Shown here: in pieces, positions 8,793 to 55,395 of the stretch
How the letters are laid out: each line of letters opens with the position of its first letter
How positions within the stretch are numbered: position 1 is the stretch's first letter
Source: an uncultured Gilliamella sp.
GTDB taxonomy: Bacteria; Pseudomonadota; Gammaproteobacteria; Enterobacterales; Orbaceae
Reading direction: 5' to 3'
Assembly: GCA_946482005.1 (NCBI GenBank)
Contig: CAMLPV010000007.1
Location: 62,001-126,000, forward strand
Length of the DNA stretch: 64,000 bases
Position numbers and translations under genes: made by a program
The notes under the pieces: model-generated
What the model saw: only the letters and a program-made list of their open reading frames with translations
Databases searched by the model: none
What the model was told of the DNA's origin: nothing

Positions 8793-11700
8793 TTAACTAT
8801 CTGCTGGCGTTTCTATATCAGAATAGGTAGCTAGCATCTGTAAGAATTTAAATTTAGAGTTCACCATTTTAGCCGATTGCGTATGCAAGGTATTGGCAAT
8901 CACAGGTTCGAGCGTTTCTAAACGGCGGAAACGTTGTTCTCTGAGTAATACATCGGTTAATGATTCGCTATTTGGTGCTTTTGAGTCTAATGCTAAACCT
9001 GGTTTACCTTCTAGTGCACGACGAGGATCGTAACGATATAGTGGCCAAAAACCAGATTTAACCAAATCTTTCATTTGTTCATGAGATTTAGATAAATCAT
9101 AGCCATGCTCTTCACAAGGACTATAAGCAATAACAAGAGAAGGACCGTCATAGGCTTCAGCTTCTTGTAAGGCTTTAAGTGTCTGGTTCAATTGTGAACC
9201 TAATGCAACTTGAGCGACGTAAACATGACCGTACATCATTATACTTACCCCCAGATCTTTTCGGGCTTTATTTTTACCTAAATCAGCAAATTTAGATACC
9301 GCCCCCATTGGGGTTGCTTTTGATTGTTGGCCACCGGTATTTGAGTAGCATTGGGTATCAAGTACTAAGATGTTAACATTTTCGGTTAAACTCATTACAT
9401 GGTCGAGCCCACCAAAACCGATATCATAAGCCCAACCATCACCGCCAATTGCCCAGACTGACTTGTCGATCAGGTAGTCGGCATTCTGCATTAGATCTTT
9501 AGCTTCGGACGAGCTTAAATGCGCTAATTGTTGACGCAATAAATTGACTTGCTTACGTTTTTCATCAATGGAAAGATCCGATGATTGTAAACTCATTACA
9601 ATCTCTGGTGAAATTTCACCAGCGACATGTTCCAGTAAACGTAACGCCCGTTTTTTATGTTGGTTATAGGTAATTCGATAACCAAGGGCAAACTCAGCAT
9701 TATCTTCAAATAATGAGTTAGCCCAAGCTGGACCACGACCACTACGATCGGTAGTATATGGTGATGATGGTAAATTACCGCCATAAATTGATGAACAACC
9801 TGTTGCATTGGCAATAGCCAGATGATCACCATATAGCTGTGTTAGTAATTTAATATAAGGTGTTTCACCACAACCAGCACATGCTCCAGAATATTCAAAT
9901 AATGGGGTTAATAGTTGTGATGTTCTTATATCTATTCGTTCGAGTGTTGTAATCTCACGATCAGGTAGGGCAGTAAAGTAGTTGTAATTATCTCGTTGTG
10001 TTTCAAGATTATCGATGCGTGATTGCATGTTGATTGCTTTGATATCAAAGTTATTACGATCACGTGATGGGCAAACTTCAACACACAACTTACATCCGGT
10101 ACAATCTTCTGGGGCAACTTGTAATACATAACGTTGACCTTTCATGTCTCGTGCTTTTACTTCAAGTGAGCTTAGTGATTCTGGTGCATTGACCATATCA
10201 TCAGGTGTTACTACTTTGGCTCGAATAGCGGCGTGCGGACAAGCTACCACACAATGGTTACATTGGGTACAAAGTTCAGGTTTCCAAATTGGAATTTCTT
10301 CAGCAATATTACGTTTTTCCCATTTGGTCGTACCAACAGGCCATGTTCCATCCGGCGGGAAGGCTGAAACTGGTAAGGTATCACCTAAACCAGCTAACAT
10401 GGTAGCCGTTACCATCTTAACAAAATCAGGTGCATTACTTGGTACGATAGGTGGTCGCGAAGGGCTACTTTGATCAACACAACTTAACGGAATTTGTTCA
10501 AGAGAGGCGATAGCCAAATCAAGCGCTTTCCAGTTATTTTCAACAATATCTTGCCCTTTACTGCTGTAACTTTTGGCAATAACTTCTTTTAGCTGATTAA
10601 TACTGAAATCATTTTTGAATATTTCCGATAAATGGAAGAATGCGGCTTGCATTACGGTATTAATTCTTGCCCCTAAATTACATTCTCGAGCAATTTTAGC
10701 CGCATTAATTATATAAAAATGTGCTCTTTTCTTAATTAGTTGGACTTGTACTTCCTTAGGTAATCGATGCCAAATCTCATCCTTGCTATAAGGTGTGTTT
10801 AACAAGAAGATACCATCGTCTTTTAATCTTTCGACGATTTGGTATTTATCGATAAACTGATCTTGATGACAACCGATAAAATGTGCGCTAGTGATTAAAT
10901 AGGGAGAATCAATTGGTTCAAGGTTTACTCTCAGGTGAGAAGTGGTTAAACCACCGGCCTTTTTCGAGTCATAAACAAAATAACCTTGAACATAAAATGG
11001 TGAACTATCACCAATGATTTTGATATTATTTTTAGTCGCAGATACCGTTCCATCACTTCCCAAGCCATAAAATAGGGCTTCGAGGGCTGATTTTTGCGGT
11101 ATAGATTGTTCGGGTAACGGTAATGACAAACCGGTAATATCATCGTAAATGCCAACAGTAAAGCGAGGTTTTGGCATGTCAGTTGTTAATTCGTTAAATA
11201 TCGCTAATACACAGCGAGGATCGAACTCTTTTGATGATAAACCATAACGACCACCAATAATTTTTGGCAAATAATCGCGTTCACCACGAGAAAAGCTTTC
11301 TGCAAATGCGGTCATTACATCTAAATAAAGTGGTTCAGCTTGAGCTCCTGGCTCTTTGGTGCGATCCATCACCGCGATTTTTTTCACGCTTTGCGGAATA
11401 ATATCAAGAAGATGTTTTGCTGAAAAAGGGCGGAATAATCTAACGATAACTAGACCAACTTTTTCATCGTTTTTGATAAGATGATCGACCACTTCTTTGG
11501 TTGTACTGACACCAGAGCCCATGATGACAATAATACGCTCAGCATCTTTTGCACCATAATATTCGAAAGGTTGATATTTTCTTCCGGTCTCTTTTGCAAA
11601 TGCTTGCATTGCATCAACAACATGATGGTAAGCATTTTCATAATACGGATTAACCGCTTCACGACATTGGAAGTAAGTATCCGGATTGGCTGAAGTTCCG

Positions 11701-12335
11701 CGTATTACCGGTTTATCTGGAGTTAATGCTCTAGCTCGAAACGCATCTATCGCTTCGGTGGGTAATAACTGCCGAATTTGGTCATCACTAATTGGATGAA
11801 TTTTATTTACTTCATGTGATGTTCTAAAGCCGTCAAAAAAGTGGACAAATGGTACTCGGCTGTTAAGGGTTGCTATTTGCGAAATCAACGCCAAATCTTG
11901 GGCCTCTTGTACCGAGCTAGAACAAAGCATAGCGAACCCCGTTTGCCTGATTGACATGACATCTGAGTGATCACCAAAAATAGATAACGCATGAGTTGCA
12001 ACAGTACGAGCGGCAACATGTAAAACAAAGGGGGTTAACTCTCCGGCTATTTTATATAGCGAAGGAATCATTAATAGTAAACCTTGGGAAGAGGTAAACG
12101 ATGTTGCTAATGCGCCCGTCATTAAAGCACCGTGCACGGTTGATATTGCACCGGCTTCGGATTGCATCTCTACCACTTTTGGCGTATCACCAAATACATT
12201 GGGTTTATTAAAGTCTGCCCATGTACTTGCTTGCTCAGCCATGGATGAACTTGGTGTAATTGGATAAATAGCAATGACTTCGTTTGCACGATATGCGACA
12301 GATGACACCGCACTATTAGCATCTGATATGATCAT
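8793..12335 (-). CDS. nifJ: Pyruvate:ferredoxin (flavodoxin) oxidoreductase
   Basis: A single-chain 1180-residue enzyme (NifJ/YdbK type) that oxidises pyruvate with CoA to acetyl-CoA and CO2, passing electrons to flavodoxin or ferredoxin. The N-terminal domain begins with EVIAIYPITPSSSMAEQAS. A two-cluster ferredoxin domain shows CTQCNHCVVACP and CTGCKLCVEVCP. The C-terminal thiamine diphosphate domain has GACAGCGETPY and GGDGWAYDIGFGGLDHV. Length fits the family (about 1170-1200). It stands alone and indicates low-oxygen pyruvate metabolism, since these enzymes are usually oxygen-sensitive. Confidence 0.97.
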   Translation of the reverse strand: MIISDANSAVSSVAYRANEVIAIYPITPSSSMAEQASTWADFNKPNVFGDTPKVVEMQSEAGAISTVHGALMTGALATSFTSSQGLLLMIPSLYKIAGELTPFVLHVAARTVATHALSIFGDHSDVMSIRQTGFAMLCSSSVQEAQDLALISQIATLNSRVPFVHFFDGFRTSHEVNKIHPISDDQIRQLLPTEAIDAFRARALTPDKPVIRGTSANPDTYFQCREAVNPYYENAYHHVVDAMQAFAKETGRKYQPFEYYGAKDAERIIVIMGSGVSTTKEVVDHLIKNDEKVGLVIVRLFRPFSAKHLLDIIPQSVKKIAVMDRTKEPGAQAEPLYLDVMTAFAESFSRGERDYLPKIIGGRYGLSSKEFDPRCVLAIFNELTTDMPKPRFTVGIYDDITGLSLPLPEQSIPQKSALEALFYGLGSDGTVSATKNNIKIIGDSSPFYVQGYFVYDSKKAGGLTTSHLRVNLEPIDSPYLITSAHFIGCHQDQFIDKYQIVERLKDDGIFLLNTPYSKDEIWHRLPKEVQVQLIKKRAHFYIINAAKIARECNLGARINTVMQAAFFHLSEIFKNDFSINQLKEVIAKSYSSKGQDIVENNWKALDLAIASLEQIPLSCVDQSSPSRPPIVPSNAPDFVKMVTATMLAGLGDTLPVSAFPPDGTWPVGTTKWEKRNIAEEIPIWKPELCTQCNHCVVACPHAAIRAKVVTPDDMVNAPESLSSLEVKARDMKGQRYVLQVAPEDCTGCKLCVEVCPSRDRNNFDIKAINMQSRIDNLETQRDNYNYFTALPDREITTLERIDIRTSQLLTPLFEYSGACAGCGETPYIKLLTQLYGDHLAIANATGCSSIYGGNLPSSPYTTDRSGRGPAWANSLFEDNAEFALGYRITYNQHKKRALRLLEHVAGEISPEIVMSLQSSDLSIDEKRKQVNLLRQQLAHLSSSEAKDLMQNADYLIDKSVWAIGGDGWAYDIGFGGLDHVMSLTENVNILVLDTQCYSNTGGQQSKATPMGAVSKFADLGKNKARKDLGVSIMMYGHVYVAQVALGSQLNQTLKALQEAEAYDGPSLVIAYSPCEEHGYDLSKSHEQMKDLVKSGFWPLYRYDPRRALEGKPGLALDSKAPNSESLTDVLLREQRFRRLETLEPVIANTLHTQSAKMVNSKFKFLQMLATYSDIETPADS

Positions 12336-12602
12336 TAAAAAACCTTGTATTTTATAGTGTTATGACATTACTTCATTATTATATTTTTGGCTATTGTACC
12401 AGAAAGTATGATAGCTTTTAGTTATTTTTATGTTAAATTTTTCGTTGTAGCTGGTCGTTTTTAATCACAACTAAGGAAATTATTAGCTGTAAACTGTAGA
12501 GAAAAGATTAATTACTGAGCTAATTAAAAGCGTTAATAGCTATGAAGATTTTTAACGTCTGAATTATGCTTAGTCATGATAGGCAGTACTTATGTGAAAA
12601 TT
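12336..12602. other. Non-coding gap upstream of nifJ
   Basis: With the hairpin that follows, this is a 313-base gap between nifJ and purM, both on the minus strand. It is AT-rich, has stop codons in all frames, and must hold the nifJ promoter, but no clear consensus boxes or operator stood out. Confidence 0.5.
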
Positions 12603-41910: not shown

Positions 41911-42960
41911 TTATTCAGCAAACTTATTTTTATGATCATAACGATTGTAATGAATATCATCACTAATTAAGTAATTATAGATATCATCAACAATCTCTAT
42001 GCCATTTTTTAAGTAATCGGCTTCACGTTTTTTGCTTCTTTCGCCGGGAAAGAAAACTTCACTAACGCCTTTGGCTGGTTTAGCTTGTTTTAGTTGGTCT
42101 AGCATAGCGGACATAGTTTGTTTAAAAATATCTAGGCCGATAAAATATTCAGGATTGATCACAATATGCAGATGACCAAGGTTTCGACCTTTAGAGAGGT
42201 CGGCATACATTGATGAGACGTTTTTGCCAAATGGCAAGCCCAGTAGAATGCCAGAAAGCACATCTACCATCATCATTAAACCATAACCTTTAGCATCAGA
42301 GATTGGTAATAGGGCATTTACTTTGTAGGGATCAGTTGTGGGTTCACCATGTTCATCAACCGCCCAAGTTGGTGGAATTGCAGCGCCTTTAGATCTTGCG
42401 TATAAGACTTTTCCCCATGCTTGAACTGTGGTTGCCATGTCGAACGAAACAACACGCTCATCGTTAGTCGGTGCAGCAAAAGCGATAGGATTAGTGCCAA
42501 AAAATTCTTCGGCGCCACCATAGGGAACAGCCATTGGGTCGGACTGGCACATGGATATGGCGACTAAGTTTTGTTTAGCAGCCATTTCAGTAAAGTAGCA
42601 AAGCGAGCCGCTATGCGACATTCGACGAATTCCTACTACGGCAACGCCATTTTTTTTTGCCATTTCTATCGCTTTGTCCATACCAACTTTAGCGGCAACT
42701 AAACCGCAACCATTATCAAAATCTAATATTGCTGACGATGGACCAGTCTGTTTATAGCTGACATTAGGATAGGCAGTCATGCCTCCTTTGGCAATGCGTT
42801 CAGCGTAGTATTCAACTCGTACGGCGCCATGTGAGTGAATGCCTCGTGCATCGGCAAATGCTAGCGTATCTGCGGCGATATCGGCATGCTCTTGAGTCAA
42901 TCCCGCTTTATGTAATTTTTTGGCAATTAAGTTGTGTAGTGTTGGTCTATCTAGTCTCAT
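41911..42960 (-). CDS. allD: Ureidoglycolate dehydrogenase
   Basis: Oxidises (S)-ureidoglycolate to oxalurate with NAD. The 349-residue protein equals E. coli AllD in length and is closely similar: DARGIHSHGAVRVEYYAERI, GVAVVGIRRMSHSGS, SMCQSDPMAVPYGGAEEFFG, FDMATTVQAWGKVL, GYGLMMMVDVLSGILLGLPF. I start at the ATG at 42960 with GAGGAG upstream; an extension to 42978 is not supported. Last gene of the left allantoate operon; its product is the substrate of FdrA-YlbE-YlbF. Confidence 0.95.
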   Translation of the reverse strand: MRLDRPTLHNLIAKKLHKAGLTQEHADIAADTLAFADARGIHSHGAVRVEYYAERIAKGGMTAYPNVSYKQTGPSSAILDFDNGCGLVAAKVGMDKAIEMAKKNGVAVVGIRRMSHSGSLCYFTEMAAKQNLVAISMCQSDPMAVPYGGAEEFFGTNPIAFAAPTNDERVVSFDMATTVQAWGKVLYARSKGAAIPPTWAVDEHGEPTTDPYKVNALLPISDAKGYGLMMMVDVLSGILLGLPFGKNVSSMYADLSKGRNLGHLHIVINPEYFIGLDIFKQTMSAMLDQLKQAKPAKGVSEVFFPGERSKKREADYLKNGIEIVDDIYNYLISDDIHYNRYDHKNKFAE

Positions 42961-43008
42961 TTTAAAACTCCTCGCCACGCTATCGGTTATGGCTATTTAG
43001 ATTTTTCG

Positions 43009-43911
43009 CTATTGTGTGATGATGGTGCCTTTGGTTTGTGCTAATAGCGATTCAATATCGGTTAAGTTGCCGATATAAGCGGTGTTACCGGTTTGCTGAA
43101 CAAATTCAATGACTGATTTTATTTTTGGCCCCATAGCACCGTCATCAATTGCCATTGGTTGTATTCGTTTAGTATCGACTTTGCCTAAAGCTGTTTGTTG
43201 TGGTGTTCCCCAGTTTTCATATACGGCATCAGTATCTGTTAAGATCATTAAATGGTCGGCTTTCAGTTCAATGGCGAGTTGTGCAGCGCTATGATCCTTG
43301 TCGATCACCGCCTCAATACCTTTGTAGCCCGATTTATCTTTAATTACCGGAATACCTCCACCACCATTGCAGATAACGATAGTATCTTGGTTGACAAGGT
43401 CTTTAATAGTATCAAGTTCGATAATTTTTTGTGGTTTTGGTGATGCGACTACTCGACGTAGGTATTTGCCATCTTGTTTAAATTGCCAGCCATATTGAGC
43501 TTGGAGTTTTTGTTGTTCTTCTGGTTGATATACAGGCCCTATATATTTGGTAGGCTCTTTAAATGAAGGGTCGTTGCTATCTACCTCGACTTGCGTTAAT
43601 ACACAAGCGACTTGGTTGACATTGTCATATTGCTGTAAGCTTTGCTTTATCATATAACCTAACATGCCTTGTGTTTGTGCAACTAGCACATCCAGAGGGT
43701 AAGCAGGTACATTGGGGTAACTAGCATTTTGTAGGGCAAGAAGTCCCACTTGCGGCCCGTTGCCGTGCACAATAACAAGTCGATATTTATTGGCTAATTT
43801 TGCAATAAATTTAGTGGTGCTGTTGATATTTTGATATTGGTTATCAATAGAGAGTAATTCGTTTCGTTTTGAAATCGCATTACCACCTAATGCTATAACT
43901 ATGAGTTCCAT
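43009..43911 (-). CDS. arcC: Carbamate kinase (allantoin pathway)
   Basis: Transfers phosphate from carbamoyl phosphate to ADP, giving ATP, ammonia and CO2. The 300-residue amino-acid-kinase-fold protein shows VIALGGNAISKR, VIVHGNGPQVGLLALQNA, CNGGGGIPVI and LMILTDTDAVYENWGTP. No arginine deiminase gene is near; its place between allE and allD marks it as the YbcF (AllK) type that uses carbamoyl phosphate from oxalurate cleavage. This is the energy-yielding step of the pathway. Confidence 0.94.
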   Translation of the reverse strand: MELIVIALGGNAISKRNELLSIDNQYQNINSTTKFIAKLANKYRLVIVHGNGPQVGLLALQNASYPNVPAYPLDVLVAQTQGMLGYMIKQSLQQYDNVNQVACVLTQVEVDSNDPSFKEPTKYIGPVYQPEEQQKLQAQYGWQFKQDGKYLRRVVASPKPQKIIELDTIKDLVNQDTIVICNGGGGIPVIKDKSGYKGIEAVIDKDHSAAQLAIELKADHLMILTDTDAVYENWGTPQQTALGKVDTKRIQPMAIDDGAMGPKIKSVIEFVQQTGNTAYIGNLTDIESLLAQTKGTIITQ

Positions 43912-43937
43912 ACGGTGTCCTATATTATGTTTATTGT

Positions 43938-44717
43938 TTAGAGTTCCACATCACGATGGCAATCTTTAGAGTAGATATAACTTAATGGCTGCTGGCCAAC
44001 GGCGTAACAAGCTTGCAAAGCATAGGCACCCATAAAAATGTAGTCATCCTTTTTGACCGGTATCCATTGATTATCAAGCAGATACATACCTTCACCGCTA
44101 AGTAAATAGGCGCCATGTTCTTGTACATGGGTTTCGATATAGCCATGACTTGCGCCTGGTAGGAAAGTGAGAATATGGAAATTCATATCAAATCCGAGCT
44201 CTTTAGGCAGTAAGTCTTGGATGAATACGTTATCCATATTTTCATAATTTACCCGCTCAAGATGTTGAATATGATTGGCAATCACACGTGTTTGATATCC
44301 TGAAATAGGGTTATAGCGGCGTTTGTATAAAAATAAACGCGAGGAAGGCATCAAATTTTGTAAATAGAGTTTGACGCCTGCGGGGCAATAGATATAGCCA
44401 CCAGTTTGTAGATGATATGTTTGCTCATTAGCTTTAGCACTAACTTCGCCTTCAATCACATAAGCAAATACTTCAATGCCATCATCACCAAATCCTTGTA
44501 AGTTTTGTCCACCTTGATACATGGTGAGAAGATAATCGACAAAAGAAGCTCCAAGTTTAGGCGTAGCTAAAATAGTAATGTCACAATTTTCAAAACCAGG
44601 AATTATATTTTTAACTAGACCATCTGGAGGGATTAAGGCAAAATTTTGCCGTTTGATCACTGCGCGTGAAGCTAATAGGTCTTTTGGGTAACCGATGTTA
44701 TTGTTGATATATCCCAT
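43938..44717 (-). CDS. allE: (S)-ureidoglycine aminohydrolase
   Basis: Converts (S)-ureidoglycine to (S)-ureidoglycolate and ammonia (manganese enzyme, bicupin). 259 residues versus 261 in E. coli AllE. Motifs: DLLASRAVIKRQNFALIPPD, FAYVIEGEVSAKANEQTYHL, FLPGASHGYIETHVQEHGAY and LLSGEGMYLLDNQWIPVKK (metal-binding cupin). I start at the ATG at 44717 with AAGGAG seven bases upstream; an extension to 44756 is less likely. It lies in the left operon after the MFS gene. Confidence 0.93.
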   Translation of the reverse strand: MGYINNNIGYPKDLLASRAVIKRQNFALIPPDGLVKNIIPGFENCDITILATPKLGASFVDYLLTMYQGGQNLQGFGDDGIEVFAYVIEGEVSAKANEQTYHLQTGGYIYCPAGVKLYLQNLMPSSRLFLYKRRYNPISGYQTRVIANHIQHLERVNYENMDNVFIQDLLPKELGFDMNFHILTFLPGASHGYIETHVQEHGAYLLSGEGMYLLDNQWIPVKKDDYIFMGAYALQACYAVGQQPLSYIYSKDCHRDVEL

Positions 44718-44833
44718 AATGATCTCCTTGGAACATATGCTTGAGATTTTAGGCAAAATATGCCGTTAACATACTAATTTCAGTCAACTATTTATCGTAT
44801 TTCTTGTCGATAAATAGTTGCTAGTTTGCGTAA

Positions 44834-46066
44834 TTAATTGGTTATGTGTTTACGCAAATTAATTACAAAGAATAAGGCTGTTGCAATAAATAAGATTGCA
44901 ATAGCAACATAAAACCCTGTAATTTTGGTTCCTGTTATATCCGCTAATAAACCAGTTAATGGTGGGGCGATCACTGATGAACTCATACCAAAAAAGTTAA
45001 ATACCCCAAATGCTGTACCATAACTGTTTTTAGGTGCAATATCCGCCACATGCGAAATGAGAATCGGTTCAACCACAAACTTACCAAATAATCCATAAAG
45101 GATTAATCCCATTAATAATAAGGTGATGGTTGAGGATTGAACTGCCATTAATAAAGTCATCGCAGAGAGCAGTTCCAAGACAATGATAAAGAAAAGTCGT
45201 TTAGACCGAAATTTATCCGAAATTTTGCTGATAACCAACGCACCAGGAATGGCGGCGAAAGCCACTAATGATGATGCCGAACCGATACTACCGCCGGTAA
45301 AGCCACGTTCAGTTTCGAGAAAATTAGGTAACCAGCTTACCACCATGTAGTAACCATAACATGTCGCAAAGTACATGATGTAACACGCTATCATCGGGCT
45401 AGTAAAAAAGTTGTTTTTTTCTTTTGGCGCAATATTTGTATCGGGTTTCTGCTGTTTTTTCTGAGCAATAACGGTTTTGACTGATGGTTCTTTGATAATG
45501 ATCGCAAATCCAGCAATTAGGCAGAGTGTTAGCACAGCAATAATATAGAGCATATATTGCCATGGCATATTTAAAGCTTTAACTAAAAAGCTAGTCGATA
45601 GTAAACACACCCCCATACCTAATGCGGCTCCAGTATTGATAATGGCTGAAGCAAAACTACGGTTTTCAGCAGGAATATTTTCAGCAGACAGGGACCAAGC
45701 CGAACCATAATAAGACCCACAACCAAGACCAGCGAGCAAACTACCAATGTAGATCATCGTCATGGTTTGTGCATTACCAATCATAATTGCCGCAATGGTA
45801 AAGAGGATAAAACCGGGAATGACGACTGCTTTTTTGCCATATTTATCGACTAAGATCCCAGCAGGGATTTGCATTAAGGTATAGGAAAAAAAGTAACAGC
45901 TAGCAATTAAACCAAGTTCAGTATTGGATTGCGGTCCTACAGTTTGCTGAATTTCCGGAAAAATTGCAGCTAAAACCGGACGATAAATCCACATGACTAA
46001 CCAACCAAGGAATAGTAAAGCGACGATTTTATGCCAGTACTGAATGCCACCTTTTTTTTCTGTCAT
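44834..46066 (-). CDS. MFS transporter, candidate allantoate permease
   Basis: A 410-residue, 12-helix major facilitator. N-terminal WHKIVALLFLGWLVMWIYRP, loop GILVDKYGKKAVV, and the C-terminal half with KISDKFRSKR. It is read between allC and allE with only 12 bases after allC, so import of the pathway substrate (allantoate or a ureide) is the natural inference; the family alone does not reveal the substrate. It differs from the purine-related carriers AllP/YbbW used for allantoin in E. coli. Confidence 0.85.
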   Translation of the reverse strand: MTEKKGGIQYWHKIVALLFLGWLVMWIYRPVLAAIFPEIQQTVGPQSNTELGLIASCYFFSYTLMQIPAGILVDKYGKKAVVIPGFILFTIAAIMIGNAQTMTMIYIGSLLAGLGCGSYYGSAWSLSAENIPAENRSFASAIINTGAALGMGVCLLSTSFLVKALNMPWQYMLYIIAVLTLCLIAGFAIIIKEPSVKTVIAQKKQQKPDTNIAPKEKNNFFTSPMIACYIMYFATCYGYYMVVSWLPNFLETERGFTGGSIGSASSLVAFAAIPGALVISKISDKFRSKRLFFIIVLELLSAMTLLMAVQSSTITLLLMGLILYGLFGKFVVEPILISHVADIAPKNSYGTAFGVFNFFGMSSSVIAPPLTGLLADITGTKITGFYVAIAILFIATALFFVINLRKHITN

Positions 46067-46078
46067 TTTATTTCCTTA

Positions 46079-47305
46079 TTATTCTTGATAAGCCAATTGA
46101 TAAAGGGCGTAAGTTAATGCTTTTATTCCTTCGACTAAATCTTCAGTTTTAGTGTCTTCTGCTGGATTGTGACTAATGCCTTTGATACTAGGTACAAATA
46201 ACATCGCGGTTGGCACTCGTGGTGCGAATATTTGCGAATCGTGACCAGCTCCGCTATGCATCACGCGATAGCTTAGATTTTCTTGTTTGCAGATGTTTTC
46301 CAGCATTTTGATTAGTTTGTTGTCCATGGGAATTGGTGGTTCATCCATCCAACGATTTATTTCAATTTCAAGACCAAGTTCTTTGGCAATACGTAACATG
46401 TCAGCTTCAAGTTCTTCAGTAAATTGCTTCAGGTCTGCTTGATCTGTATGACGGCAATCAATTGTGAACATCACTTCACCAGGAACCACATTAACCACAT
46501 TCGGTTTTGGCTCGACATGACCGAAGGTTAATACTAGCGGATCGCCTACTTTGATTGCTTTATTAATTGATTCTTGGCAAATTCGGCTAAAGGCGTAGAT
46601 GGCATCTTTGCGATAGCTCATTGGCGTGGTGCCGGCGTGATTAGCTTCACCAATTAAACGAATATTATAACGACGTTGGCCGACTATGCTGGTAACCACC
46701 CCGATGCTTTTTTGTTCTCTTTCCAGTACACCACCTTGTTCGATGTGGATTTCTAAAAAGGCTTTGATGTCGGTACGCGCTTTTTGGCTGTTAAATTTGA
46801 ATCCGCAGTTGCGCATAGCGTCGACAAATTTAATACCATTATTGTCTTCAATTGAAGCAACATCCTCATTATTAGCAATGGCAAATACGTTTTTGCTTCC
46901 CCAAAAGACATAAGGAAAGCGACTGCCTTCTTCTTCGGCCATGGAGATAAGTTCTAAGGTGCGTAACGGTTGACCGTAATTTTCTTTAAGGTATTTCATG
47001 GCAAGCATAGCGGCAATGATGCCAAGTTGACCATCGAGTTTGCCACCATTGACCACGGTATCAACATGCGATCCCGACATGATGACTTGATCTCTGTATT
47101 TGCTACCTTCAAATCGACCATATAAGTTGCCGACATCATCGAAATAGGTGTTCATGCCAATATGTGAGAGTTTTTCTTGGATGGCTTTTTGGGCAGCTAG
47201 CCACTCTGCTGTATAAAGTAATCGGGTAGTACCACCTTGTTCTAAACCTCCAAAGCTAGATATCCATTTAACGGCATTAGCAACATCATCGTATAAAATA
47301 TTCAT
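46079..47305 (-). CDS. allC: Allantoate amidohydrolase
   Basis: Hydrolyses allantoate to (S)-ureidoglycine, ammonia and CO2. The 408-residue M20/M28-family metallo-amidase (E. coli 411) has SGSHVDTVVNGGKLDGQLG with the metal-binding His and Asp, MAEEEGSRFPYVFWGSKN with paired Glu, EIHIEQGGVLE, and HSGAGHDSQIF near the end. First gene of the left operon, divergent from fdrA. No allantoinase (allB) is present in the window. Confidence 0.95.
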   Translation of the reverse strand: MNILYDDVANAVKWISSFGGLEQGGTTRLLYTAEWLAAQKAIQEKLSHIGMNTYFDDVGNLYGRFEGSKYRDQVIMSGSHVDTVVNGGKLDGQLGIIAAMLAMKYLKENYGQPLRTLELISMAEEEGSRFPYVFWGSKNVFAIANNEDVASIEDNNGIKFVDAMRNCGFKFNSQKARTDIKAFLEIHIEQGGVLEREQKSIGVVTSIVGQRRYNIRLIGEANHAGTTPMSYRKDAIYAFSRICQESINKAIKVGDPLVLTFGHVEPKPNVVNVVPGEVMFTIDCRHTDQADLKQFTEELEADMLRIAKELGLEIEINRWMDEPPIPMDNKLIKMLENICKQENLSYRVMHSGAGHDSQIFAPRVPTAMLFVPSIKGISHNPAEDTKTEDLVEGIKALTYALYQLAYQE

Positions 47306-47705
47306 AAATATTTACCTGCTATTTAAAACTCCATCATTGTTAACATCGACTATTTTTGATATTAACCGCGCATATCATTTCGATATTACCGATCATTTTA
47401 AATGTTTTTTTTGTTTACCATACTATTAATAGCAAATAATAATGTGATCAAACTAGCTTTTTTATGTTTGTGAAATTTAATTAAATTAAGGAGTTATTAT
47501 TATAAAAAATTTTTTAATAATTATTTATCATACTGATTTTAAATAATATTATACTTTTGATATCGTTAATGTTTTGTGATGTATTACCTGCTTATTCGGC
47601 ATTTTTTCCGTAATATATAAATACTATCTAACAAGTAGATTTTTATAATGAGCTTAAAGAGGTTCAAAGTTAATCGCATTTTTCATAATTGAGAGGCCTG
47701 TTCTC
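47306..47705. promoter_or_regulatory. Divergent control region of the two allantoate operons
   Basis: 400 bases between allC and fdrA, AT-rich. Both operon promoters and presumably AllS sites must lie here. A half-match to a CRP box (TGTGATCAAAC near 47442) is visible; no clear LysR T-N11-A operator could be singled out by eye. GAGAGG precedes the fdrA ATG. Confidence 0.5.
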
Positions 47706-49373
47706 ATGATTCAATCTTTTATAAAAAAAGGAAGCTTTCAAGATTCTGTCAGTTTGATGTTGATATCGAAAAAACTCAGTAATCTTGATGAGGTTGAAGA
47801 AGTATCTGTCATGATGGGTACTCCTGCCAATAAATCGTTATTAACCGCAACAGGGTTTTGGAGTGATAGTTTCAATGATGCAACACCAAATGATATTTGC
47901 GTCGCTATTAAAACCAAAGATGATGCTAAAGATGTTGTTGAGTTAATCAGTCAACAACTTGAGGATGCTTTAAAAAATATTGCTCAAGCTCAACAAGGTG
48001 GTGCCAAGTTACTTAAAGCTAGACGCTTGGCCAGTGCAACAAAAAAATTACCTGATGCAAATTTAGTCTTAATTTCGATTGCAGGCGAGTACGCCGCTGA
48101 GTTAGCCGATCAGGCATTAGATGATAATAAAAACGTGATGATCTTTTCTGATAATGTATCTATCGAAGACGAAATCCGTTTAAAAACTAAAGCAGCTAAA
48201 AAAGATTTAATTGTGATGGGACCAGATTGTGGAACCGCATTTATTGCCGGTGCACCATTAGCGTTTTCCAATGTTATTCCTAAAGGAAATATTGGCGTAA
48301 TTGGGGCATCTGGTACTGGTATTCAAGAGGTGGTTTCGCAAATCGCTTTATTAAATCAAGGTATCACGCAAGCCATCGGCTTAGGTGGCCGTGATTTGTC
48401 GCTCGAAGTAGGTGGTATTAGTGCGCTTACAGCGTTAAATATGTTAGCGGCCGATGCCGATTCCCAAGTGATTACCTTTATCTCTAAACCACCGGCAGAA
48501 AGTGTACGGGAAAACGTGATTTCAGCGATGAAATTAATTCCTAAACCAGTAGTAGCGCTATTTTTGGGCTCAAAAATCGATAAACCTCAAGACGATAATA
48601 TCTATTTTGCCAGAACACTCGATGAAGCCGCACGATTAGCCTGTTTGCTCAGTCCTGTTGAGGCGACAGCCAATAAGTTACCTAATTTAGCCAATAAAAC
48701 TATTACTGGCTTATATACTGGGGGAACCTTAGCTTCCGAAGCGGCGATGTTGCTTGCTCAGGAACTCGGTTTAACCACCAGTCATCATCACGATAAAGGA
48801 ATTATGTTAGATCAACAAGGGCATAAAATTATCGATTTAGGTGATGATTTTTATACGGTGGGTAAACCTCATCCAATGATTGATCCTTCTATTCGTGAAG
48901 AGGAGATCGCTCGGTTAGGTGATAAACCTGATGTTGGCGTATTACTTGTGGATTTGGTGATTGGCTATGGTGCAAATGGTGATCCAGCCGAATCAGTGAT
49001 TGCTGGTTATCAAAAAGCCTGTGCTAAGCGAGATGAAAATCATCCACTGATTGTTATCGCGACCGTGACCGGTTCAGAACAAGATCCACAATGCCGTAGC
49101 AAGCAAATCGAAGCATTAAAAGCAGCCAATATTGTTGTGATGAATAATTTACCTGAAGCTATTTTGCTTGCCAAAAAACTGATCACACCAACTAAATCAA
49201 CCAACTTAATTAAAACCTATCCTTTATTAAGTCATATTAGTGTTATCAATGCTGGTTTGAGAAGTTTTGCTGAAGATCTTCAATCATCGAATATTCCTGT
49301 TGTGCATTATCAATGGGCGCCAATAGCCGGCGGCAATAAAAAATTAGCGGCTATTTTGCAAAAATTAAATTAA
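47706..49373 (+). CDS. fdrA: FdrA, oxamate transcarbamylase component
   Basis: 555 residues, the same length as E. coli FdrA, with succinyl-CoA-synthetase-like folds: MGPDCGTAFIAGAPLAF, IGVIGASGTGIQEVVSQIAL, TQAIGLGGRDLSLEVGGISA and TGLYTGGTLASEA. FdrA, YlbE and YlbF (also AllF, AllG, AllH) were reported to form the oxamate transcarbamylase that turns oxalurate and phosphate into oxamate and carbamoyl phosphate. First gene of the right operon, divergent from allC. Confidence 0.93.
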   Translation: MIQSFIKKGSFQDSVSLMLISKKLSNLDEVEEVSVMMGTPANKSLLTATGFWSDSFNDATPNDICVAIKTKDDAKDVVELISQQLEDALKNIAQAQQGGAKLLKARRLASATKKLPDANLVLISIAGEYAAELADQALDDNKNVMIFSDNVSIEDEIRLKTKAAKKDLIVMGPDCGTAFIAGAPLAFSNVIPKGNIGVIGASGTGIQEVVSQIALLNQGITQAIGLGGRDLSLEVGGISALTALNMLAADADSQVITFISKPPAESVRENVISAMKLIPKPVVALFLGSKIDKPQDDNIYFARTLDEAARLACLLSPVEATANKLPNLANKTITGLYTGGTLASEAAMLLAQELGLTTSHHHDKGIMLDQQGHKIIDLGDDFYTVGKPHPMIDPSIREEEIARLGDKPDVGVLLVDLVIGYGANGDPAESVIAGYQKACAKRDENHPLIVIATVTGSEQDPQCRSKQIEALKAANIVVMNNLPEAILLAKKLITPTKSTNLIKTYPLLSHISVINAGLRSFAEDLQSSNIPVVHYQWAPIAGGNKKLAAILQKLN

Positions 49374-49384
49374 GAGGTTTTGAT

Positions 49385-50644
49385 ATGTTAAGTACCGCAA
49401 TAAATGAAGCAAACCAAAAAATTATTGAAAGAATTAAAGCGGCTAGACCACATTGGGTAGGCGTTGTTGCTGCGAAAGAAGCCGTACCAACCTTAGCGCA
49501 AGGTAAAAAACTTTTACATGCTGGTCCGCCGATTGTTTGGCATGATATGACAGGACCAATGCAGGGAGCTTGTATTGGTGCCTGTTTGTTTGAAGGTTGG
49601 GCGCAAGATGAAAAACAAGCTTTACAGTTATTAGAATCAGGCCAAGTCGAATTTATTCCTTGTCACTCTGTTAATGCGGTTGGTCCGATGGGGGGCATAA
49701 CCTCAGCCAATATGCCAATGATTGTGGTTGAAAACGTTACCCATGGTAATCGCGCTTACTGCAATTTAAACGAAGGTATTGGTAAAGTGATGCGTTTTGG
49801 TGCTTATGGTCAAGAGGTGTTAGATCGTCATCGTTGGATGAAAGAGTCATTAGGACCAGCCTTAAACGATGCGTTAAAGCTGTTTGATAATGGTATCGAT
49901 TTAACCGCTTTGATGGCACAAGCGATTACCATGGGCGATGAATTCCATCAACGAAATATTGCCGCTTCAGCGTTATTATTAAGAACACTTTCTCCGAAAT
50001 TAATTTTACTTGACCGCAGTAAAGCAGAAATGGAAAAAATCTTTAGCTTTTTAAGCGTGACAGATCAGTTCTTCCTAAACGTGGCGATGGCATTTTGTAA
50101 ATCCATTATGGATAGCGCGGCGCAGATTAAAGAAGGGACTATTGTTACCGCAATGACGCGTAATGGTAAAGAATTTGGTATTAAAGTCAGTGGACTTGGC
50201 GATCAATGGTTCACTGCTCCAGTGAATACACCGCAAGGTCTGTTCTTTACCGGCTATTCGCAACAAGATGCTAACCCAGATATCGGTGATAGTGCCATCA
50301 CTGAAACCTTTGGAATTGGCGGTGCGGCGATGGTCGCTGCGCCGGGAGTAACTCGCTTTGTTGGCGCGGGTGGTACAGATGCAGCATTTGAAGTATCTGA
50401 AGAGATGAGTGAAATTTATTTAGAACATAATATGTTGTTGCAAATTCCGACATGGAACTTTCAAGGATGCTGTTTAGGCTTAGATCTTCGTCTGGTTGTT
50501 GAAACGGGGATCACACCATTGATTAATACTGGTATTGCCCATAAACAAGCCGGTATAGGTCAAATTGGCGCAGGAACAGTTAGAGCACCGTTAGCCTGTT
50601 TTGAAAAAGCACTCGAGGCATTAGCCAAAAAACTAGAAGTGTAG
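49385..50644 (+). CDS. ylbE: YlbE (DUF1116), oxamate transcarbamylase component
   Basis: 419 residues, equal to E. coli YlbE. DUF1116 landmarks: AGPPIVWHDMTGPMQGACIG, SVNAVGPMGGITSANMPM, HRWMKESLGPALNDALKLF and GTVRAPLACFEKALEALA. It follows fdrA by 11 bases. Assigned as the AllG part of the three-subunit enzyme acting on oxalurate; the reaction is known for the complex, not for this chain alone. Confidence 0.92.
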   Translation: MLSTAINEANQKIIERIKAARPHWVGVVAAKEAVPTLAQGKKLLHAGPPIVWHDMTGPMQGACIGACLFEGWAQDEKQALQLLESGQVEFIPCHSVNAVGPMGGITSANMPMIVVENVTHGNRAYCNLNEGIGKVMRFGAYGQEVLDRHRWMKESLGPALNDALKLFDNGIDLTALMAQAITMGDEFHQRNIAASALLLRTLSPKLILLDRSKAEMEKIFSFLSVTDQFFLNVAMAFCKSIMDSAAQIKEGTIVTAMTRNGKEFGIKVSGLGDQWFTAPVNTPQGLFFTGYSQQDANPDIGDSAITETFGIGGAAMVAAPGVTRFVGAGGTDAAFEVSEEMSEIYLEHNMLLQIPTWNFQGCCLGLDLRLVVETGITPLINTGIAHKQAGIGQIGAGTVRAPLACFEKALEALAKKLEV

Positions 50645-50647
50645 ATT

Positions 50648-51586
50648 ATGAGTTTGCTATATGCCGATGATGAATGCTTAAATAAGCCGATTAATCAGGC
50701 GCGACCAAATATGCACGCTGTTGAGCTTTTTCAACCGCGTGCTATAGCGCAAGCAACGCATATTATCAAACCTCTTTTAGTTAGTGCAGATATTCCGATA
50801 GAAGCGGGTGAGTTGTCACTTTTTAGTACTCATCCGCAAACTATTAATTTAATTACTCCAAATCAGCGATTAATCACCATTCATCGTTATAATAGTGGTT
50901 TATCGCCTATGGGCATGGTGCTTAAATCATCTGATTTTGATGACCTTTTAACGTTTTTATTGGATGGTGAGATACCTCTTTATCAATTACCAACTGGCGA
51001 ACTGCAAATTGGGCTATATCTCATTTCACTTGCAACACATGTTTGTCAGTTAACTCTTAAAAGTCATTCATTAATTAATAAATCCGATATTGCCAGTCTG
51101 TTAAAGCAAATTAACCAACCAACCGGTTTATTTGGTGAATTGAGCAATAATTTAAGTGGCGAGTATCCACCGCAACTTGAAATGTTATGTAGCACTATGA
51201 ATAATTTGATGAATGGCATCGTTGATGATATTACACCGTTTATTGGTTTAGGACCGGGTTTAACCCCAAGTTTTGATGATATTATTGTCGGCATGTTGGC
51301 AGTTATTTCTGGCGATCATCGTTTTACCACTCAAATGCGACAACTAAAATTAGCCTTTGAGCCATTGCCATTAGACTTATTAACTACTAAGGTGAGTGTT
51401 AGTTTTTTGACTTATGCACTGCAAGGAAAATTTTCTTTATTGGTGTTACAAGTGATTAAATCATTTGAAAAACAAAATTATCGCCATTCATCAATAAAAA
51501 ATTTATTGAATTATGGTCACACCTCTGGATCCGATTTGTTACTTGGTATATGGTTAGGTATAGATCGTTTTGTTTTAAGGGATTAA
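50648..51586 (+). CDS. ylbF: YlbF (DUF2877), oxamate transcarbamylase component
   Basis: 312 residues, somewhat longer than the roughly 270 of E. coli YlbF. The DUF2877 core is seen in FIGLGPGLTPSFDDIIVGML and the C-terminal YGHTSGSDLLLGIWLG. It starts three bases after ylbE, and allS starts three bases after it, so translation is probably coupled. Third subunit (AllH) of the oxalurate-cleaving enzyme. Confidence 0.88.
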   Translation: MSLLYADDECLNKPINQARPNMHAVELFQPRAIAQATHIIKPLLVSADIPIEAGELSLFSTHPQTINLITPNQRLITIHRYNSGLSPMGMVLKSSDFDDLLTFLLDGEIPLYQLPTGELQIGLYLISLATHVCQLTLKSHSLINKSDIASLLKQINQPTGLFGELSNNLSGEYPPQLEMLCSTMNNLMNGIVDDITPFIGLGPGLTPSFDDIIVGMLAVISGDHRFTTQMRQLKLAFEPLPLDLLTTKVSVSFLTYALQGKFSLLVLQVIKSFEKQNYRHSSIKNLLNYGHTSGSDLLLGIWLGIDRFVLRD

Positions 51587-51589
51587 ATC

Positions 51590-52513
51590 ATGCTAGATAC
51601 TGAAACCATGCGAACCTTTATAAAAGTAGTTGAGAGCAATAGCTTTTCAAAAGCGGCTAAGCTACTTTACAAAACACCGGCGGCAATTAGTTATCGTATC
51701 AAATCATTAGAAGCGGATCTCAATACTCAGCTTTTTGAGCGCACCACGCGAACCGTGACACTTACGCTAGCAGGACAACATCTTTATGAACAATGTAGTC
51801 AATGGTTACTTTGGTTATCAACCATGCCGGAGGAGTTGCAACAAATTCGTGATGGTGTTGAGCGTAAAATTAATATTACCATCAATAATCTGTTATACGA
51901 TGTTGAAGCGGTAACTGATTTGTTAACGTTTTTAACAGAGAAATTCCCATTCACAACTTTCAATATCAATCGACAAGTTTATATGGGAGTGTGGGATTCT
52001 TTATTGCATGGTGAATGCCATTTAGCTATCGGTGCAACGGGTACCGAATCGCTCGATACCATGATTAATATCTTACCACTTGGTGAAGTAAGTTGGGTGT
52101 TTGTGGCGGCAAAACATCATCCTATTACACAAATTGATGGCGCATTATCCAATGATATCTTACGTAAGTATCCAGCAATTAATGTTGAAGATACTTCTGT
52201 TCATATGAATAAGCGAGTAGCCTGGTTATTACCAAGTCAATCCGAAATTATTGTGCCAAATATAAGCACCAAATTAGCTTGTCATTTAAAAGGGTTAGGT
52301 ATTGGCTTTTTACCAAAATCAATTTGCCAATCATATTTAGAGTCAGGTGAATTGGTAGCATGTAAAGTGGTGAATGAACGTAAACCATCACCACTGTCAT
52401 TAGCTTGGAAAAAATCCCATATGGGTAAAGTGATGAATGAAATTGTGAATCTATTTAAATTTCATCATCCCATTGCCAACAATTTTTTAAAAAATATAGA
52501 TAAAAGAAGATGA
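51590..52513 (+). CDS. allS: LysR-type activator AllS
   Basis: 307-residue LysR regulator: N-terminal HTH TETMRTFIKVVESNSFSKAA with TPAAISYRIKSLEADLNTQ, then a co-inducer domain. It tracks E. coli AllS along its length (FERTTRTVTLTLAGQHL, EELQQIRDGVERKINITINN, RQVYMGVWDSLLHGECHLAI, IGFLPKSICQSYL). AllS activates allDCE in E. coli when allantoin is present. Here it lies inside the operon between ylbF and the aminotransferase gene. Confidence 0.92.
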   Translation: MLDTETMRTFIKVVESNSFSKAAKLLYKTPAAISYRIKSLEADLNTQLFERTTRTVTLTLAGQHLYEQCSQWLLWLSTMPEELQQIRDGVERKINITINNLLYDVEAVTDLLTFLTEKFPFTTFNINRQVYMGVWDSLLHGECHLAIGATGTESLDTMINILPLGEVSWVFVAAKHHPITQIDGALSNDILRKYPAINVEDTSVHMNKRVAWLLPSQSEIIVPNISTKLACHLKGLGIGFLPKSICQSYLESGELVACKVVNERKPSPLSLAWKKSHMGKVMNEIVNLFKFHHPIANNFLKNIDKRR

Positions 52514-52563
52514 ATCAGTGTAATCTTCAACTAATTAACTCGATATAATAAAGGAAAAAAATA

Positions 52564-53796
52564 ATGTTAGACCTAGATAAATATGACCAAATTAATCCGC
52601 CTACGCGACTATTAATGGGACCAGGTCCAATCAATGCTGATCCACGCGTGACTAGAGCGATGGCGGCACCTTTAATTGGTCAGTTTGACCCAGTTATGAC
52701 TGATTATATGAATCAGACTATGTCACTTTATCGGGATATTTTCAAAACCCAAAATGAACAAACATTTGTTATTGATGGCACCGCAAGAGCCGGTATTGAA
52801 GCAGTTCTGGTGTCAACAATTAAACCAGGTGATAAAGTATTAGTGCCAGTATTTGGTCGTTTTGGTCTATTACTTTGTGAAATTGCCCATCGTTGTCGTG
52901 CTGATGTGCATACTATTGAAGTGCCATGGGGCGAAGTGTTCGATCCTAATGTGATCGAAGATGCCATTAAAAAAGTTAAACCAAAACTCTTACTTTGTGT
53001 ACAAGGTGATACCTCAACCACATTATTACAACCGCTAGATAAAATTGGTGAAATTTGTCGCCGTCATGGGGTGTTGTCTTATGTGGATGCAACTGCATCG
53101 ATTGTAGGTAATCCACTAGAAGTTGATAAATGGCAACTTGATGGGGTATCAGTTAGCTTACAAAAATGTTTGAGTGGTCCTCCGGGAGTTGCACCTCTTA
53201 CTCTAAGTCCAAAAATGGTCGAAATTATCCAAGCTCGTAAATGTGTTGAACTTGGTATTCGAGCGGATAATGATGAAGGTGGCCGAGATGAGATGATCTA
53301 CTCTAACTACTTTGATATCGATATGATTATCCGTTACTGGAGTTCAGAACGTATTAACCACCATACCGAAGCGACATCAATGCTTTATGCTGCACGTGAA
53401 TGTGCGCGAATAGTGTTGCAAGAAGGTCTTGATAATGTCATTGAACGTCACCGTATTAATGGGGCGGCGATGGTTGCGGGTTTACAAGCCATGGGACTTA
53501 AATTGTTTGGTGATCTGGATCACAAAATGAATAACGTTGTTGGTGTTGTTCGCCCGGAACATATCAACGATCTCGAAGTTCGTAATTTAATGCTAAATGA
53601 TTTTGGTATTGAAATTGGTGCTTCATTTGGTCCGCTCAAAGGCAATGTATGGCGCATCGGAACTATGGGCTACAATGCTAGAAAATCTTGTGTTATGCAA
53701 ACATTAACCGCTTTCGAGGCAGTGTTAAATCGGGTTGGCTTTAAAACCACCCAAGGTGCTGGTTTACAAGCGGCTTGGAACGTTTATAACAAATAG
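52564..53796 (+). CDS. pucG: (S)-ureidoglycine-glyoxylate aminotransferase (PucG-like)
   Basis: 410-residue class V aminotransferase. LLMGPGPINADPRVTRAMAA and FDPVMTDYMNQTM at the N-terminus, VDATASIVGNPLEVD before the PLP lysine Lys201 in SLQKCLSGPPG, and the end NVWRIGTMGYNARKSCV. PucG of Bacillus moves the amino group of ureidoglycine to glyoxylate, giving oxalurate and glycine. Its place after allS makes this reading preferable to alanine- or serine-glyoxylate aminotransferase, but sequence alone cannot exclude those. E. coli lacks this gene in its all cluster. Confidence 0.82.
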   Translation: MLDLDKYDQINPPTRLLMGPGPINADPRVTRAMAAPLIGQFDPVMTDYMNQTMSLYRDIFKTQNEQTFVIDGTARAGIEAVLVSTIKPGDKVLVPVFGRFGLLLCEIAHRCRADVHTIEVPWGEVFDPNVIEDAIKKVKPKLLLCVQGDTSTTLLQPLDKIGEICRRHGVLSYVDATASIVGNPLEVDKWQLDGVSVSLQKCLSGPPGVAPLTLSPKMVEIIQARKCVELGIRADNDEGGRDEMIYSNYFDIDMIIRYWSSERINHHTEATSMLYAARECARIVLQEGLDNVIERHRINGAAMVAGLQAMGLKLFGDLDHKMNNVVGVVRPEHINDLEVRNLMLNDFGIEIGASFGPLKGNVWRIGTMGYNARKSCVMQTLTAFEAVLNRVGFKTTQGAGLQAAWNVYNK

Positions 53797-53918: not shown

Positions 53919-54038
53919 TACTGCAATTAACAATATGGTAGTTATCAATACGATAGTTATCAAAACGATAGTTATCAATACGGTAATTTTCAATATCATA
54001 GTTAAAGATAGAGCAGTAAAAAATAGAGCAGTTAAAAA
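53919..54038 (+). repeat. 15-bp tandem repeat, about eight copies
   Basis: Consecutive 15-mers run from 53919 to 54038. The best-kept are TATGGTAGTTATCAA, TACGATAGTTATCAA, AACGATAGTTATCAA and TACGGTAATTTTCAA; the first and last copies have drifted (for example TAGAGCAGTAAAAAA). It fills most of the 321-base gap between pucG and the MFS gene and ends 79 bases before that gene's start. Confidence 0.85.
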
Positions 54039-54117: not shown

Positions 54118-55395
54118 ATGAATGAGTTAAATACTAAAATTCCTACCTCTGGGTATAAGCAAAAAAAATGGAAAGGGCGGTATACCATCTTATTACTTTT
54201 ATGGTCAGGTTGGTTACTTTCATTTCTTGATCGCATGGTCATGAGTGTATCACTGCCTTTTATTGGTCACGACCTTGGTATTGATAAGACTGTGCAAGGT
54301 TCTATTATCAGTGCCTTCTTTATTGGTTATGCACTGTTTCAAATTCCCGGTGGTTACTTAGCGGATAAATTTGGCCCGCGTAAAGTGATGGCTTTTGCTA
54401 TTATTTGGTGGTCAATGTTTACTCTGTTTACTGGGCTTATCTATGTATTGCCTTTAATGTTATTAACCCGATTTATGTTTGGTGCCGGTGAAGGCTGTTT
54501 TCCTGCCTCATCTTGGAAAACTATTGCTACTTATTTTCCCGCCAAAGAGCGCGGGCGAGCAACGGCAATTCAATCATCAGTTAATACCTTAGGGCCAGCA
54601 ATATCGGTAATTGTGGCGGTTGCCATTATTGAATGGTTAGGTTGGCGTGATGTCTTCATCATTCTAAGTATTCCCGGTTTTATATTAGGCTTTTTTATCT
54701 ACAAATTTATTCGCAACAATCCAACGGAAAATAGGCTGATTGATGCAAATGAACTACAAGAATTAGCAATTAACAACGATAATACCGTTGAAACTGTCAC
54801 AAATAGTTCGGTTTCATTAATAAATGTATTAAAAATGCCAATACTGTGGAAATTATCGCTAATCTGGTTTCTATTCGACATCACATTTTGGGGCTTCACT
54901 ACTTGGTTACCAAGTTACTTACTTGAAGCTAGAGGATTGTCACTATCCAAAACCGGCATCTTAGCGGCAATACCTTTTCTATTTGGCGCATTAGGCACCT
55001 TAGTTGGCGGTTATTTTGCTGATAAGTTTGCACAAAAATTAAAATATGTCTATGGCTTAACTGCTTTCATCTCGGGAATATTTCTATTTTTGATGTTCCA
55101 AGTTGAAAACCTTCAAGCGGCAATGGTCTTCCAATGTGTATCGGCACTATTTATGTTTATTGCATTCGCTATCTTCTGGGGAATGTTAATGCATATGATT
55201 CCCCCAGCAATTATGGGTAAAGCCTCAAGCATTGTTAATTTTGGCGGCCAAGTCGCTGGCGTATTATCACCATTCATCATCGGCTTCCTAATCGATAACG
55301 CCAATGGTGGTTATAACCATGCCTTCTTATTTATGGTTATAGCGTTAATAAGCTCAGCCATATTGACCTTTTTCATCAAAAAGATGAATATTTAA
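54118..55395 (+). CDS. MFS transporter, anion:cation symporter type
   Basis: A 425-residue, 12-helix carrier of the ACS family: LSFLDRMVMSVSLPFIGHDL in helix 1, GGYLADKFGPRKVM in the first loop, and FMFGAGEGCFPASSWKTIA in helix 4, the conserved organic-acid site region. ACS members carry glucarate, hexuronates, phthalate and allantoate (yeast Dal5). Its position after the allantoate genes suggests a ureide, oxamate or other organic anion, but the repeat-filled gap means it may be an independent unit. The ATG has AAGGAA upstream. Confidence 0.85.
   Translation: MNELNTKIPTSGYKQKKWKGRYTILLLLWSGWLLSFLDRMVMSVSLPFIGHDLGIDKTVQGSIISAFFIGYALFQIPGGYLADKFGPRKVMAFAIIWWSMFTLFTGLIYVLPLMLLTRFMFGAGEGCFPASSWKTIATYFPAKERGRATAIQSSVNTLGPAISVIVAVAIIEWLGWRDVFIILSIPGFILGFFIYKFIRNNPTENRLIDANELQELAINNDNTVETVTNSSVSLINVLKMPILWKLSLIWFLFDITFWGFTTWLPSYLLEARGLSLSKTGILAAIPFLFGALGTLVGGYFADKFAQKLKYVYGLTAFISGIFLFLMFQVENLQAAMVFQCVSALFMFIAFAIFWGMLMHMIPPAIMGKASSIVNFGGQVAGVLSPFIIGFLIDNANGGYNHAFLFMVIALISSAILTFFIKKMNI

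Follow-up and report, generated by a model that had tools for sequence, protein, structure and literature searches.

A Gilliamella gene cluster predicted to join the Escherichia coli oxamate branch of ureide breakdown to a ureidoglycine aminotransferase step

The window analysed here, a stretch of 64,000 nucleotides from an uncultured Gilliamella sp. (GenBank assembly GCA_946482005.1, contig CAMLPV010000007.1, positions 62,001 to 126,000), carries at positions 41911-53796 ten open genes in two divergent operons, with all frames intact at the coordinates given below. The left operon holds allD, allK, allE, a carrier of the major facilitator superfamily (MFS) and allC, and the right operon holds allF, allG, allH, allS and a gene for a ureidoglycine aminotransferase (UGXT) of the PucG/HpxJ type. 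We propose, with a probability of about 0.7, that the cluster encodes a fermentative ureide-disposal pathway joining the oxamate branch of Escherichia coli to the UGXT step, and comparison with relatives suggests that both routes to oxalurate feed the same energy-yielding last step.

In the proposed scheme, AllC would convert allantoate into ureidoglycine, CO2 and ammonia, and oxalurate could be reached from ureidoglycine either through AllE, with release of ammonia, and then AllD, with formation of NADH, or through UGXT, which would move the amino group of ureidoglycine onto a keto acid. AllFGH, the oxamic transcarbamylase (OXTCase), would use phosphate to cleave oxalurate, giving oxamate and carbamoyl phosphate, and AllK would convert the carbamoyl phosphate into ATP, ammonia and CO2. 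The most likely amino acceptor of UGXT would be glyoxylate leaked from the unstable ureidoglycine and ureidoglycolate, in which case the enzyme would remove a harmful by-product, yield glycine and replace the glycerate branch of E. coli. We infer every one of these activities in Gilliamella, as well as the acceptor of UGXT and the substrate of the carrier, from sequence comparison.

The UGXT gene (52564-53796, forward strand) matches the Pfam family Aminotran_5, with no NCBIfam model over its cut-off. The best solved relatives of its product are 3nnk, a ureidoglycine-glyoxylate aminotransferase that we take to be Klebsiella HpxJ (650 bits), and 3isl, Bacillus subtilis PucG (430 bits), and the top alanine-glyoxylate aminotransferase match, 1vjo, reaches 272 bits. 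The residues Gln37 and Asn264 of PucG, which presumably bind the ureido group, have as counterparts Gln40 and Asn265 in the window enzyme and His and Tyr in 1vjo; with Lys201, the pyridoxal phosphate (PLP) lysine, the window enzyme thus carries all three residues by which a ureidoglycine aminotransferase is recognised. Across 81 rows (80 loci and the window), the Gln and the Asn are each conserved in 79 and the PLP lysine in 80; the rows that deviate are L076 (partial), L078 (broken frame) and L079 (an outlier at 31% identity). The protein is 100% identical to its counterpart in Gilliamella apicola ESL0177, and its ratio of nonsynonymous to synonymous rates (dN/dS) of 0.00-0.04 in six comparisons indicates that it is under strong constraint. 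A quick tree was built from 79 rows, with L076 and L078 omitted; it is rooted on L079, a very long outgroup flagged by the tree program, and has support from the Shimodaira-Hasegawa-like approximate likelihood ratio test (SH-aLRT) only. In it the nine Orbaceae rows form one clade (99) within a 37-row set (97), whose other members are 27 rows, mostly from Enterobacterales, and one from Desulfovibrio.

By its sequence, the window enzyme groups with the ureidoglycine aminotransferases, and turnover of ureidoglycine to oxalurate is the predicted activity. An alanine- or serine-glyoxylate aminotransferase, clearing glyoxylate only and leaving ureidoglycine alone, would belong to the same fold family and would agree with the lack of AllA and of any Gcl over cut-off described below. 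We regard this as very improbable in view of the gap between 650 and 272 bits, the diagnostic Gln and Asn, the loci elsewhere in which UGXT stands with allG and often allC, with no visible allE or allD, and a relative that keeps AllFGH after losing allD.

The identities proposed for the genes in an earlier note on this DNA hold, with eight of the ten genes over the cut-offs of specific curated models, the carrier and UGXT matching broad Pfam families only, and UGXT identified through its relatives 3nnk and 3isl. On the reverse strand, allC (allantoate amidohydrolase, 46079-47305) scores 678 bits with TIGR03176 (cut-off 598; 60% identity to E. coli AllC), allE ((S)-ureidoglycine aminohydrolase, 43938-44756) scores 336 bits with TIGR03214 (cut-off 200; 65% to E. 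coli AllE), allK (catabolic carbamate kinase, 43009-43911) scores 442 bits with NF006926 (cut-off 416; 55% to E. coli AllK) and allD (ureidoglycolate dehydrogenase, 41911-42978) scores 575 bits with TIGR03175 (cut-off 496; 59% to E. coli AllD). The listed starts of AllE and AllD probably lie too far upstream: most relatives begin AllE at an ATG near 44717, for a length of 259 aa, and many begin AllD near 42960, for a length of 349 aa, the probable starts here too. On the forward strand lie the genes for the predicted OXTCase subunits, namely allF (fdrA, 47706-49373; NF004760, 873 bits, cut-off 433; 63% to E. coli FdrA), allG (ylbE, 49385-50644; PF06545, 325 bits, cut-off 27; 73% to E. coli YlbE) and allH (ylbF, 50648-51586; PF11392, 84 bits, cut-off 25; 34% to E. 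coli YlbF), together with allS (51590-52513), for a LysR-type activator (NF007501, 468 bits, cut-off 372; 55% to E. coli AllS). With AllC, AllE and AllD all over their equivalog cut-offs, a three-gene OXTCase and a catabolic carbamate kinase, the cluster has the make-up of the E. coli-type oxamate branch. AllH evolves fast, its dN against relative G018 being 0.183, compared with 0.011 for AllG and 0.041 for AllF at similar dS; its dN/dS is 0.12-0.49 in six comparisons, that of the other cluster genes at most 0.20 where dS is usable, and it has no solved relative at E below 0.1.

The distribution of these genes was followed in 44 genomes of the window's family, taken as Orbaceae, where the trait is patchy: AllG is found in 17, UGXT in 17 and both in 16, leaving 27 of the 44 with no AllG, and among the control genomes E. 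coli alone gave an AllG match. UGXT occurs without AllG only in G036, a 74% complete genome, and AllG without UGXT only in G043, where it sits in another operon. The latter (L123) is a distant OXTCase-like operon (AllG 47%, AllF 38%, AllK 41%, plus a LysR gene) with no allC, allE or allD match within the stretch examined, and G043 was on these grounds rejected as a control for OXTCase without UGXT. Gene content and gene order are shared by fourteen Gilliamella clusters, from the window and 13 relatives, the one exception being the missing allD of G029, and because this order recurs in 14 of 14 the cluster is not a chance arrangement. UGXT adjoins allS in every one of them, and UGXT, the carrier, AllE, AllF, AllG, AllH and AllS are full-length frames throughout; the allD genes of G015 and G023, cut by the edge of the stretch compared, are whole in the family search of genomes.

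In G029, a genome 99% complete, the only match to the ureidoglycolate dehydrogenase family is a C-terminal remnant, some 29 codons long, beside an intact allK, with stops upstream (L131 4059-4212), and allC, allE, allF, allG, allH, allK, allS, UGXT and allB are open frames. Since AllD is lacking, no recognised way to oxalurate other than UGXT is left in this genome, and the loss moderately favours the UGXT route, as support rather than proof. Gene neighbourhoods outside the Orbaceae point in the same direction. Sixteen such loci with UGXT near allG were fetched (threshold E 1e-10 and 40% of the query; flank short in L049, L050, L062, L064 and L076), and 15 of them have no visible allE or allD in the flank examined; the only one with both is L069, from Lachnotalea glycerini, which also has allC and allK. 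Two further loci depart from this arrangement, L074 having allE and allD with no allG in the stretch examined and L065 having allF with no allG match. On the UGXT tree, the presence of allG nearby implies at least 7 changes across 72 labelled rows (22 positive), seven rows being left unlabelled on account of short flanks or doubtful kinship; UGXT and OXTCase were therefore joined more than once or separated often. The convergence of AllE-AllD and UGXT on oxalurate, as the earlier note had it, thus gains moderate comparative support, from these neighbourhoods and, only moderately, from the loss in G029.

Several observations weigh against a joined pathway. All 15 family genomes with AllD over cut-off lie within the 16 that have AllG and UGXT, so UGXT could be minor. 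The allD tail of G029 is identical to the window's at 22 of 26 residues by eye count, so the loss may be recent, and a recent loss may say less than a long-kept bypass would; the gaps between allF, allG and allH in this genome are also longer than in the window. Two other relatives have one damaged gene each, allK lying in two frames in G003 (L126 13989-14913) and allC in two frames in G032 (L124 about 11285-12508), splits that may reflect decay or sequencing error, and the pathway of G029 may be decaying in the same manner. The same losses and the near-constant presence of AllD would also be expected if the cluster were the all pathway of E. coli, decaying in some lineages, and UGXT merely happened to lie beside it and carried little flux. 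The full-length, strongly constrained UGXT beside allS in 14 of 14 Gilliamella clusters speaks against this reading, and we consider it rather unlikely. As a separate observation, in G001 (L150), from another genus of the family and with no AllG or UGXT match, an allD-like stretch has decayed with eight stops, hinting at an older loss.

A further count on the same side is the amino acceptor of UGXT, a putative keto acid, and with it the supply of glyoxylate, which is the weak point of the choice envisaged in the earlier note between NADH plus ammonia and glycine. Ureidoglycolate lyase (AllA) matched none of the 44 family genomes, the window's own (81% complete) included, and among the controls E. 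coli alone; isocitrate lyase likewise matched none of the 44, compared with 8 of 14 controls, 5 over cut-off. The search for gcl suggested in the earlier note found none over cut-off in the same 44 genomes, again with the window's own included, compared with 14 of 14 controls matching and 1 over cut-off; all 44 do match the model, the best at 355 bits against a cut-off of 711, as expected of related enzymes, and these matches were rejected. The AllA and Gcl of an E. coli-type glycerate branch are thus both missing from the family set. No enzymatic source of glyoxylate was found among AllA and isocitrate lyase in the 44 genomes, glycolate oxidase and 2-keto-4-hydroxyglutarate aldolase not being searched for, and therefore either the flux through UGXT is limited by leaked glyoxylate or the acceptor is another keto acid. 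The two enzyme routes of the earlier note are supported, and its free choice between them, which needs glyoxylate, is weakened.

Were the acceptor pyruvate or another common keto acid, with alanine or a similar product, no glyoxylate would be needed, which agrees with the missing enzymatic source. The window enzyme is also nearer to 3nnk than to PucG, and HpxJ is said to accept several keto acids, reportedly having been described by French and Ealick in 2010 with alpha-keto acids in general. Against this, 3nnk is named a ureidoglycine-glyoxylate aminotransferase, and PMC4016543 states, for 60 degrees C, that ureidoglycine itself decays to glyoxylate, ammonia and urea, which should leave some glyoxylate available. 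That the acceptor is a different keto acid is in our view possible, if doubtful, and decay of ureidoglycine and ureidoglycolate is the likeliest source of glyoxylate for the joined pathway. In E. coli, according to PMC12535856, AllA makes glyoxylate and Gcl consumes it.

A more tentative extension of the joined pathway is that UGXT acts not as a side branch but as a leak-catcher that makes it self-balancing. Glyoxylate arising from AllE and from spontaneous decay would be spent on a second ureidoglycine, giving oxalurate and glycine, after which AllFGH and AllK would give ATP, and AllD would be dispensable, as in G029. In lineages with no visible AllE or AllD, the series AllC-UGXT-OXTCase-carbamate kinase would then be the whole pathway and a recurring route in bacteria.

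No allantoinase lies within the window, and the earlier note had taken this as a sign that allantoate may be imported directly. The absence stands within the window, and the conclusion drawn from it is weakened. The window's genome is listed as 81% complete; its nearest relative, G016, has allB-allW in an 18-kb region that is missing from the window's assembly, save for two matches of about 30 bases. Because this orthologous region is missing, the lack of allantoinase is uninformative here and is probably an assembly gap, and we rejected a true absence on the same ground. The family-wide search for allB suggested in the earlier note found allantoinase over cut-off in 15 of the 44 genomes, 12 of them among the 16 with AllG and UGXT, the other three being G033, G034 and G036, which are 59 to 74% complete. 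As substitutes, PuuE-type allantoinases were considered and rejected, with none of the 44 over the cut-off of 425 bits and a single match, in G037, that reaches 129 bits. Decarboxylase of 2-oxo-4-hydroxy-4-carboxy-5-ureidoimidazoline, an indicator of the conversion of urate to allantoin, turned up in only one of the 44 genomes, again G037.

Where allB-allW is present, it stands at one shared site in seven genomes (G003, G006, G007, G015, G016, G018 and G032), flanked by a NAD-binding-oxidoreductase-like gene and a flhA-like gene, labels read by eye with no family search. It adjoins UGXT in G029, and the clusters of G037 and G038 themselves include allB. None of the three 99% complete genomes G010, G027 and G028 has an allantoinase over cut-off, and in them the flanks of the shared site lie about 55 to 115 bases apart with no allB-allW between them; a recheck of G027 and G028 (L158, L159) confirmed the empty site. 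In the tree of AllC, AllF and AllG, whose deeper branching is unresolved, these three fall in two lineages, and two separate losses of allB-allW are for this reason likely, though not proven. Direct uptake of allantoate does fit these three genomes. Contigs C17, C25, C35 and C42 of G010 give identical match scores to one region, and its assembly looks redundant.

The best candidate for allantoate uptake is the MFS carrier (44834-46066, reverse strand), which matches PF07690 and, as its best NCBIfam model, the D-galactonate-type TIGR00893 at 111 bits (cut-off 395). It is present in 14 of 14 Gilliamella clusters at 74-100% identity. In G037 and G038, which belong to other genera, no carrier stands between allC and allE; on the far side of allD there is an MFS gene with 34-38% identity, which in G038 is broken into two. 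The carrier might instead export oxamate, which PMC12535856 terms a dead-end by-product in E. coli, and its retention in strains with and without allB would agree with that role. With allB-allW absent from the shared site, however, G010, G027 and G028 must take up ureides by some other importer, and their allC operon holds this carrier and no other; moreover, a second MFS gene lies beyond UGXT. Export of oxamate is accordingly conceivable, and import of allantoate is the role that we assign provisionally.

This second MFS gene (54118-55395) adjoins UGXT and is variable among relatives, its best match being 25% in the stretch of G007, with a 160-aa frame in G035. Between it and UGXT, about five copies of a 15-base tandem repeat occupy positions 53927-54004. 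The divergent promoter region between allC and allF spans 400 bases (47306-47705) and shows conserved blocks in an alignment of nine sequences; those at 47400-47520 that are kept in the nine promoter regions include TAATGTGATC and AAATTTAATT, and are possible candidate sites for a regulator. Scans for promoters and terminators showed no excess of sites over shuffled sequences.

The steps of the proposed pathway have been described elsewhere, one by one. PMC11326118 gives experimental evidence for the OXTCase activity of AllFGH in E. coli and reports Klebsiella pneumoniae as having no OXTCase genes; the OXTCase genes were identified in a 2024 paper. Activation of allF by AllS and ArcA in E. coli is experimental, according to PMC12535856, and for the window allS, a gene over the cut-off of its model, AllS/ArcA control and anaerobic expression are at most predicted by analogy. 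PucG has been characterised in B. subtilis, and E. coli has no such enzyme according to PMC10163214. Both sources of oxalurate are already named in PMC5270733, and a 2016 review gives them as separate, with UGXT in B. subtilis and the other route in E. coli. The excerpt of PMC10722301 mentions both Gilliamella and allantoin and treats them separately. Among the literature matches listed, from a search with most subscription journals outside its coverage, neither ureide use by Gilliamella nor UGXT and OXTCase in one cluster is described. As each step is known elsewhere, the new part is therefore the union of both in one cluster.

Compared with E. coli K-12, the window holds the same oxamate branch, with allC, allE, allD, allF, allG, allH, allK and allS at 34-73% identity, and in both allF heads an operon divergent from the others. 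The window differs in that allK, which follows allH in E. coli, lies in the allC operon, in that allS stands downstream of allH, in its extra MFS carrier and UGXT, and in the location of allB-allW, which lies elsewhere in relatives. With E. coli queries, the window gave no match to allA, allR, gcl, hyi, glxR or glxK (one listing for the window names allB and allW only).

In the Klebsiella-type hpx pathway, OXTCase is absent and UGXT is accompanied by an AllC-like enzyme that is not the E. coli equivalog. The window shares with this branch, and with PucG of B. subtilis, a homologous UGXT with the diagnostic residues, and it stands outside the Klebsiella-type pathway, having an AllC over the E. 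coli equivalog cut-off and allFGH. In the sister group of 27 UGXT rows, an AllC-like gene of 33-36% identity accompanies UGXT at 22 of 27 loci, and an allF or allG match is found at none of the 27 in the flank examined. Granulosicoccaceae, Alphaproteobacteria and Clostridia likewise have clusters in which UGXT stands with OXTCase genes; the closest relatives of the Orbaceae UGXT are found outside these clusters. A bee-gut symbiont could plausibly use such a pathway to obtain nitrogen and ATP from the ureide waste of insects, and the natural loss of allD makes the UGXT route testable without engineering. Relative to these known systems, what distinguishes the Gilliamella cluster is that both predicted sources of oxalurate stand before one OXTCase.

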